From an uncultured Akkermansia sp. (GTDB lineage Bacteria > Verrucomicrobiota > Verrucomicrobiia > Verrucomicrobiales > Akkermansiaceae), in the NCBI GenBank assembly GCA_947588645.1, contig CANPYO010000001.1, positions 1 through 64,000 on the forward strand: a DNA stretch of 64,000 nt, read 5' to 3'. Positions 11,562-12,901 of the stretch are shown here, piece after piece. Each line of letters begins with the position of its first letter. Within the stretch, counting starts at the first letter, position 1. The notes beneath the pieces are model-generated. The model had not been told where the DNA came from, did not search any database, and saw nothing but the letters and a program-made list of their open reading frames with translations. The position numbers and the translations under genes are program-made.

Positions 11562-11803
11562 CAGGGCAACCGCATTAGAAAATGCAGTTGCCTATGTACG
11601 AAGTACGATGTACGATGTACGATTTATTAATAATGTGCGCGTTGCGCGGATTTTTTCGGATCATTAATGTCTGCTGAAATCTCTTTGGAGCCAATATCAT
11701 GATGATCTCTTGTTGTCATGATTTTTGATGCGTATAAACGGTGATATCAGTCAATAAGAGCATTTCCTCTGTCGATTGACTTCTCTCAAATGCGTTTGCC
11801 CTG
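11562..11803 (+). mobile_element. MITE-like repeat, copy 1
   Basis: CAGGGCAACCGCATT...AAATGCGTTTGCCCTG termini; flanked by 10-bp direct repeat GGGACGGATG (11552-11561 / 11804-11813). Confidence 0.75.
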
Positions 11804-11865
11804 GGGACGGATGTGGACTGCTTGACATTTATCGTTTATTTTTTCAGCGTTTTCGCAAAATCTCC

Positions 11866-11907: not shown

Positions 11908-11979
11908 AGGGCTATGGTGTAATTGGCAACACATCGGTTTCTGGCACCGCTATTCGGGGTTCGAGTCCCTGTAGCCCTA
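11908..11979 (+). tRNA. tRNA-Gln (anticodon CTG)
   Basis: AGGGCTA/TAGCCCT acceptor stem, D-arm TGTAATTGGCAACA, anticodon loop TTCTGGC, T-arm CGGGGTTCGAGTCCCTG. Confidence 0.88.
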
Positions 11980-11982
11980 TCG

Positions 11983-12020
11983 CAAGCCTGACTGGCGAAA
12001 ACCAGTCAGGCTTGATTTTT
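11983..12020 (+). terminator. Rho-independent terminator after tRNA-Gln
   Basis: CAAGCCTGACTGG cgaaaa CCAGTCAGGCTTG followed by ATTTTT. Confidence 0.85.
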
Positions 12021-12140
12021 CAAGGGCTTTGAGGTATTGTCTAGTCGTACGCAGTCGCTAGTAATTTACGAAAATTTTACGACTCAACTTTACGACTTTG
12101 TGAGAGCATGCTCGATTTTTTTCTCGGCTTCCAATTTTTG

Positions 12141-12176
12141 AAAAAAATAGCCCGCCGAGTCTAGCCACCCGGCGGG
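12141..12176 (-). terminator. Rho-independent terminator (minus strand)
   Basis: Minus strand CCCGCCG GGTGGCTAGACT CGGCGGG CTATTTTTTT. Confidence 0.8.
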
Positions 12177-12210
12177 TTGATTAGGAAAGAGGTCGAAGAC
12201 CCCATCTGAT
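12143..12210 (-). ncRNA. Predicted ~70-nt small RNA, candidate RNA antitoxin to the 12303-12374 peptide mRNA
   Basis: Own promoter (TTGACA 12240-12245, N17, TATCCT 12217-12222) and own terminator; three complementarity blocks to adjacent mRNA. Confidence 0.6.
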
Positions 12211-12216
12211 ACAGCA

Positions 12217-12245
12217 AGGATATATCTCCGGAGCGGAAGTGTCAA
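12217..12245 (-). promoter_or_regulatory. Predicted promoter of the small RNA
   Basis: Minus strand TTGACA-17 nt-TATCCT. Confidence 0.6.
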
Positions 12246-12302
12246 GAAAAATTTTTCTCCACCTTTCGGCTCCCACCCGGCTAGAGGTGGGAGCCGGTCT
12301 GG

Positions 12303-12374
12303 TCACTTAAGCAACAAGAGCACGATTATATCTCCAATGCACTTGATGAGTACCCAGACATCAGATGGAGTCAT
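12303..12374 (-). CDS. 23-aa hydrophobic peptide, candidate type I toxin
   Basis: ATG...TGA encoding MTPSDVWVLIKCIGDIIVLLLLK; SD AAGGAGG 13 nt upstream; dedicated promoter; too short for the ORF track. Confidence 0.6.
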   Translation of the reverse strand: MTPSDVWVLIKCIGDIIVLLLLK

Positions 12375-12415
12375 CTTTATATATTATCCTCCTTCCTAAG
12401 CCTTGCGGCAGGGAT

Positions 12416-12444
12416 ATTTTACCCGTTTTTCACTCGCCTGTCAA
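12416..12444 (-). promoter_or_regulatory. Sigma70-type promoter of the 23-aa peptide gene
   Basis: Minus strand TTGACA-17 nt-TAAAAT with A-rich upstream sequence. Confidence 0.7.
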
Positions 12445-12519: not shown

Positions 12520-12547
12520 TTGACAGCTCACGCCGTGCCCGTAAAAT
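12520..12547 (+). promoter_or_regulatory. Promoter of the HTH gene
   Basis: TTGACA-16 nt-TAAAAT ending 10 nt before ATG. Confidence 0.6.
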
Positions 12548-12556
12548 TCACCCGTT

Positions 12557-12901
12557 ATGATGACACCGAAAGAACTAGCTACGGCCATAAAACAGCGCAA
12601 AATACCACGCCAAGAGATCGCTCACCGCATGGGCATCAGCAAGGGCACGCTCGCTCATTGGCTCGCCGGGTTGGATCCCATCCCCGCCCGAAAGCAGCGC
12701 GTGCTCGAGGAAATTATCGCGCAGGAAACGCACCCGGAATTCAACGCCGTTGCCGCCTTCGCCGTACGCTTCTCCATCCGCGAACTCCGCACCGTGAAAT
12801 CCCTTTGGGGCAACGCCTCCACGCCCGCCGGCATGGAGAAGCTTTTGCGTGCTCTCGCTCTCGGTGAGCGCAAGCCGCGCAAAAAAGACTCATCCTGCTA
12901 G
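12557..12901 (+). CDS. Small helix-turn-helix (XRE/Cro-like) DNA-binding protein
   Basis: 114 aa; RQEIAHRMGISKGTLAHWLAGLDPIP helix-turn-helix pattern. Confidence 0.65.
   Translation: MMTPKELATAIKQRKIPRQEIAHRMGISKGTLAHWLAGLDPIPARKQRVLEEIIAQETHPEFNAVAAFAVRFSIRELRTVKSLWGNASTPAGMEKLLRALALGERKPRKKDSSC

Follow-up and report, generated by a model that had tools for sequence, protein, structure and literature searches.

In the Fst/RNA II system (par of pAD1), both RNAs share a single bidirectional terminator, which renders their loops complementary by construction (PMC7472228). The toxin mRNA and antitoxin of txpA/RatA in Bacillus subtilis also carry complementary apical loops, including those of the terminators (PMC3531473), but these RNAs overlap by ~120 nt at their 3' ends, and loop complementarity is therefore automatic there. 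In aapA/IsoA of Helicobacter, a short toxin with an inert full-length mRNA is matched by a module-specific sRNA (PMC6733600), which in that system is an overlapping antisense RNA forming an 80-bp duplex. The genes of tisB/IstR-1, shoB/OhsC, zor/Orz and dinQ/AgrB do not overlap (PMC4147584); they are divergent, the sRNA targets a long 5' UTR and not the translation start, and no loop contact has been described (PMC4147584). According to a 2025 paper that added the first type I systems in Cyanobacteria, such systems had previously come from Proteobacteria, Firmicutes and Tenericutes only (PMC12390103), and we found no report of one in Akkermansia in the literature searched.

We analysed a 64,000-nt stretch of DNA from a gut Akkermansia (hereafter the window), on the minus strand of which a toxin unit and an sRNA unit lie adjacent and co-directional, each headed by a promoter-like site. 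The parts of the locus are as follows.

11908-11979, plus strand: tRNA-Gln
12020-12097, plus strand: match to DNA that precedes the integrase-like ORF in relatives, with no integrase afterwards here
12144-12210, minus strand: antitoxin sRNA of about 65 nt, with limits deduced from the positions of its promoter and terminator
12151-12176, minus strand: sRNA terminator hairpin, then a U run; its loop GGCUAG (12166-12161) is one side of contact 3
12181-12192, minus strand: sRNA block matching the Shine-Dalgarno region
12195-12210, minus strand: sRNA block matching the start-codon region
12217-12245, minus strand: predicted antitoxin sRNA promoter, TTGACA-17-TATCCT
12267-12296, minus strand: mRNA 3' hairpin; its loop CUAGCC (12284-12279) is the other side of contact 3
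12303-12374, minus strand: toxin ORF MTPSDVWVLIKCIGDIIVLLLLK, 23 aa, hydrophobic, taken from the ORF list and having homologues
12360-12375, minus strand: contact 2, mRNA side, the start codon and first codons
12388-12399, minus strand: contact 1, mRNA side, TTAGGAAGGAGG, which holds the Shine-Dalgarno sequence
12416-12444, minus strand: predicted toxin-mRNA promoter, TTGACA-17-TAAAAT
12520-12547, plus strand: predicted promoter of the HTH gene, TTGACA-16-TAAAAT
12557-12901, plus strand: divergent helix-turn-helix (HTH, XRE-like) gene, 114 aa, an ORF with a weak HTH_3 match

When Rfam covariance models were run on the locus, tRNAs alone reached gathering score and no other credible RNA-family match appeared at E<=5. 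Searches of Pfam and NCBIfam with the cassette peptides matched no family.

A preliminary description had proposed that the toxin-mRNA hairpin and the sRNA terminator present perfectly complementary loops, GGCTAGA (plus-strand 12279-12285) and TCTAGCC (plus-strand 12160-12166). Both positions proved exact and the complementarity held; the loops had been drawn slightly too large. The predicted minimum-energy folds give loops of exactly 6 nt, CUAGCC and GGCUAG, which are exact reverse complements and reach 7 nt with one flanking pair, on a perfect 11-bp stem for the mRNA (12 with a closing U.G) and a 10-bp stem for the sRNA. Both loops are unpaired in these folds, which leaves every loop base free to pair. 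No U run directly follows the stem of the mRNA hairpin, which is therefore not a clear terminator, and the toxin transcript may extend into the sRNA gene. Two 12-bp blocks of 5' complementarity had also been claimed, and they are real: 12195-12210 matches 12360-12375 (16 nt, 88%) and 12181-12192 matches 12388-12399 (12 nt, 92%). The further claim that chance complementarity was made less likely held against background hairpin pairs, random loops and cassette permutations. For the background, we took hairpins of >=8 bp and compared the loops of those lying 30-250 nt from each other on one strand. Over both strands of the window, one of eight such pairs exceeded 4 nt of loop complementarity, and this was the toxin/sRNA pair (7 nt); none of the 40 background pairs from the other fetched loci did so, which gives 0/47 for all background pairs, window included. 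The two pairs that stood out in locus L034, with 7 and 6 nt, belong to cassettes of the toxin/sRNA family. With random loops of the same size, a 7-nt match has a P of about 0.0006.

The L034 cassettes are two tandem relatives (A and B) found by peptide search in the Akkermansia genome G092 (contig C57). Both have the same order of parts as the window, including the divergent HTH gene, which is 80-86% identical to window 12557-12901, and HTH homologues of 77-86% identity adjoin several related cassettes, also divergently. Further cassettes were found with an sRNA covariance model, a 5'-UTR pattern and toxin profiles, which added G075, G002 (two), G077, G079, G006 (two) and G070 (two). Complete cassettes, their units paired by adjacency, thus numbered 12, the window and 11 others from Akkermansia genomes, most of the genomes compared being draft assemblies. 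We call class I the window, G092 A, G092 B and G075, and class IV the other eight (QVIEYLIY-type peptides and relatives). The peptides are 23-24 aa long with a mean hydropathy of 0.67-1.52, and promoter-like sites are visible in the homologues too. A U run follows the mRNA hairpins of class IV but not those of class I, and the sRNA is convergent in three cassettes (G006b, G070a and G070b). We also observed in G007:C80 (L165) a class I toxin, MKLTPRKLWSVLKWLIEVILLLLD, truncated near the contig end, with a second cassette-like unit (MNTKNTEKLPVVSPWFTEYLIQLLIILMEVLR) immediately upstream.

The preliminary description had named loops drifting independently among homologues as a refutation; the opposite was seen in the 12 cassettes, where the loops change and the complementarity stays, which suggests that the loops of both RNAs have evolved to touch. 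The loops of the 11 further cassettes are mostly unlike those of the window (UCAGGCC/GGCCUGA, CUGGAC/GUCCAG and AUUCGCAG/CUGCGAAU are examples of complementary pairs). The longest Watson-Crick runs between cognate loops were 7 nt in the window, 7 in G092A, 6 in G092B and 9 in G075 for class I, and for class IV 5 nt in G002a, G079, G077, G006b and G070b, 6 in G006a, and 4 in G002b and G070a; in other words, 5-9 nt in 10 of the 12 cassettes and 4 nt in two. Non-cognate loop pairs, drawn from ten distinct loop sets, averaged 2.9 nt, and on permutation the observed sum of 58 was reached in 1/200,000. Taken singly, the shortest matches (4-5 nt) are unremarkable, those of 4 nt lying at the single-locus chance level (P about 0.19 for G002b and 0.18 for G070a). 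The 5' contacts, which span the Shine-Dalgarno sequence and start codon, behave in the same way: predicted duplexes range from -31 to -48 kcal/mol, 10 of the 12 mRNAs pair best with their own sRNA, and 0/200,000 permutations were as good as observed. The exceptions are the G077 mRNA, which prefers the G079 sRNA by 1 kcal/mol, and the G002b mRNA, which fits another sRNA better. In these tests the hairpins were hand-picked and related cassettes are not independent, so the permutation figure is not a strict probability.

The G077 and G079 toxins are 88% identical, and their loop cores are exchanged: UGGUC in the mRNA and GACCA in the sRNA of G077, GACCA in the mRNA and UGGUC in the sRNA of G079. 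Their 5' regions cross-react in prediction whereas their loops do not; the loops could therefore supply specificity there. Similarly, an sRNA without a toxin in G025:C2 has the loop CTGGAC against GTCCAG in its relative G092B. Such flips go towards the reverse complement without being exact letter for letter, and the inverted repeats of the stems may have allowed the inversions that produced them, a possibility that is inference only.

According to these results, the cassette is likely a type I toxin-antitoxin module in which a hydrophobic 23-aa peptide is silenced by a ~65-nt antisense RNA through three contacts; the case rests on sequence only, with no expression, toxicity or binding data. 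Two criteria for type I systems are met, an antisense RNA (through three co-varying contacts) and a small hydrophobic peptide. The sequences, the predicted structures and the co-variation of all contacts across relatives are shown here. In the proposed mechanism, the toxin mRNA would encode the peptide, a predicted membrane toxin, and the sRNA, made in the same orientation from a separate promoter immediately 3' of the toxin unit, would silence this mRNA in trans. Contact 3 would bring the 6-nt loop of the sRNA terminator together with that of the mRNA 3' hairpin, likewise 6 nt; contacts 1 and 2 would cover the Shine-Dalgarno sequence, the start codon and the first codons and so block translation. 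Transcription, transcript ends (those of the class I mRNAs in particular, without a U run after the hairpin), binding in the cell, the loops-first order, toxicity, membrane action and a faster decay of the sRNA are all inferred. In G006b, G070a and G070b the sRNA gene is convergent, and there the sRNA must act in trans. The 4-nt matches of G002b and G070a, together with a sister group lacking contact 3 (see below), weigh against this reading.

The alternative that survives best is that the pairing occurs mainly in cis: the 3' part of a read-through mRNA would pair with the Shine-Dalgarno sequence and start codon, the loops would kiss, and the RNA would stay inert until trimmed, as in hok and AapA. 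This is possible, though less likely than the trans route. The class I mRNA hairpins lack a U run, and folded read-through RNAs give Shine-Dalgarno pairing with P=1.0 in 3/3 tested, whereas the window mRNA on its own gives about 0.02; moreover, AapA offers a precedent of long-distance inhibition relieved by 3' trimming (PMC6733600). Against it, the sRNA has its own promoter-like site, the class IV mRNAs have a U-run terminator ahead of the sRNA and yet their loops match, and the convergent relatives are unable to pair in cis. In addition, the Shine-Dalgarno sequence, unpaired in the window mRNA fold, is already largely paired in the folds of the short G092 A and B mRNAs. The convergent and terminated relatives thus imply that cis pairing is not the whole story, but in class I a cis route may operate alongside the trans route, as far as predicted folds can tell.

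Alternatively, the peptide might be no toxin but a small membrane peptide under antisense control that serves some other function, such as prophage regulation. Its toxicity is indeed only inferred, and the peptides match no Pfam or NCBIfam family. We nevertheless consider this reading unlikely, as mobile, multi-copy and fast-diverging loci, in which the antitoxin outlasts the toxin upon decay, follow the pattern of addiction modules. It is very unlikely that the loops match merely through shared DNA ancestry, both hairpins having arisen from a single sequence or a bidirectional terminator: the par terminator loops do owe their complementarity to one shared DNA hairpin (PMC7472228), but the window stems are unrelated in sequence and the sites lie about 115 nt apart, the loops matching nonetheless, and the loops differ among relatives and still match. 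Finally, accidental matching of short-looped GC-rich terminators, conceivable for 4-5 nt matches taken one by one, is made very unlikely by the permutation result (1/200,000) and by the background pairs (0/47 above 4 nt).

Antitoxins that stand alone also support the type I module reading. Orphan class I sRNAs occur in G092:C35 (L047), G025:C6 (L149), G025:C2 (L150), G093:C57 (L151) and G095:C51 (L152), where the promoter-like site is kept and an adjacent toxin is absent, and G094:C49 holds a decayed one. The G093 and G095 orphans have the loop GGCCAG, one base away from that of the window, and the G093:C57 sRNA is predicted to fit the window toxin by 5' pairing (-47.5). By the same prediction, in G002:C13 the s2 sRNA fits G006a and the plus-strand sRNA fits G070a. 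In G002:C105 (L155 1000-1360), one toxin gene precedes a tandem row of three antitoxin sRNAs, whose loops are TTGGTCG, CAGACCA and TTGGTCG, the second being the swapped loop type. Orphans and arrays are consistent with anti-addiction, without proving it. A bolder reading is a loop arms race, in which mobile modules would shift specificity by altering both kissing loops, at times by exchanging them towards their reverse complements as between G077 and G079, and genomes would keep orphan or arrayed antitoxin RNAs as anti-addiction immunity against absent modules; we would lean slightly against it.

The sister cassettes encode peptides of 35 aa in G008 (two, including G008:C4), G000:C89 (L067) and G093:C1 (L068), and of 30 aa in G014:C71 (L037). 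Their layout is that of classes I and IV, and the same HTH gene adjoins those of G008 and G014. The genome of the window itself holds one of them (G000:C89) and a remnant (G000:C46, L071). As a separate observation, a reverse-strand AGGGCAAACGCATTTGAGAGAAG... repeat near the window cassette (11752-11815), possibly a small mobile repeat, also lies beside the toxin remnant in L071. Apparent pairing in the sister group is found at the start codon only, and no loop-loop complementarity was found when these cassettes (30-35 aa peptides) were checked for it; in the 35-aa group, the top of the mRNA hairpin is conserved, GGGAAACC, and is not complementary to the sRNA loop. The G008a sequence spans two copies and was left out of the contact comparison. 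Contact 3 is therefore not needed in the wider group and belongs to classes I and IV.

The surroundings of the cassettes point to mobile DNA. The G092 pair adjoins a head maturation protease gene, and the cassettes there lie in a prophage. An integrase-like ORF, recognised on reading the sequence and without a family search, comes after tRNA-Gln in G020 and G014, and the 3' side of this tRNA gene is apparently an integration site in relatives. As the stretch at 12020-12097 survives without an integrase, the window cassette probably lies in what is left of an integrated element. In G008:C21 (L075, reverse strand), a CRISPR array with 13 repeats within the stretch read has a spacer, GGTGGGCCAACACTGGCGGGCGCTTTCTTTTT, that matches the family sRNA terminator at 27/32 to each of two known copies and is a pointer to an unsampled mobile element. 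Prophage, integrase site and spacer fit an addiction module carried on mobile DNA.

Searches for further copies gave little. The window cassette DNA, compared with relatives and plasmids, matched nothing convincing besides itself; neither the window peptide nor a class I cassette matched phages, and the HTH profile found nothing in viral contigs. Upstream of distant HTH relatives (<=49% identity), no obvious toxin-sRNA unit was seen, and across the order the peptide profile gave only weak matches outside Akkermansia. Several candidates were rejected: four matches of the pattern GTCTGGNNNNTCATYAAGTGCA in viral contigs, as chance; the viral matches of GGCATAGRAAGGAGRTG (10) and ATTGARYANNTGATTTATCTG (2), which all lack a cassette-like peptide; the sole phage match of a class IV cassette, to 40 nt of GC-rich mycobacteriophage DNA, attributed to chance; and weak sRNA-model matches after apparent coding sequence (e.g. 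G007:C23 and G036:C45), which are plain terminators. The pattern GCCCGCCNGNNGGCCNNNNCNGGCGGGC matched one viral contig, whose content was not examined.

The family offers a natural set of kissing-loop pairs with varying sequences, which makes loop-coded specificity between neighbouring RNA pairs directly testable, and the orphan antitoxins and arrays do the same for RNA-based anti-addiction. Unlike in par, the complementarity is not imposed by a shared DNA hairpin, and its upkeep is therefore evidence for selection on the contact. Among the described systems, the cassette resembles txpA/RatA in its complementary loops without the 3' overlap, aapA/IsoA in its short toxin and module-specific sRNA without overlapping genes, and the tisB/IstR-1 group in its non-overlapping genes without their divergent arrangement. 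The analogy with Fst/RNA II made in the preliminary description held for the logic, a loop contact with 5' contacts over the ribosome-binding site, while binding, loop seeding and toxicity remain inferred. The contrast that it drew between tandem genes here and convergent genes in par held as well, but some relatives are convergent. Like Fst/RNA II, the cassette has a short hydrophobic peptide, a small RNA of similar size and an association with mobile elements (PMC7472228), and combines a terminator-loop contact (predicted and co-varying) with two contacts over the Shine-Dalgarno sequence and start codon (PMC7472228). It differs from Fst/par in its tandem genes, with both predicted promoters on the minus strand, in its two separate hairpins with unrelated stems and no shared bidirectional terminator, in the divergent HTH gene that accompanies Akkermansia cassettes, and in the class I mRNA hairpin without a U run. 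Moreover, the PXXXG(C) motif of the Fst/Ldr family is absent by inspection, with no Pfam or NCBIfam match. On the stem-loop by which the Fst mRNA hides its own Shine-Dalgarno sequence, the predicted folds are divided, the sequence being free in the window mRNA and mostly paired in G092 A and B. From sequence alone, we classify the cassette as sharing the working logic of Fst/RNA II while standing outside the Fst/par family.
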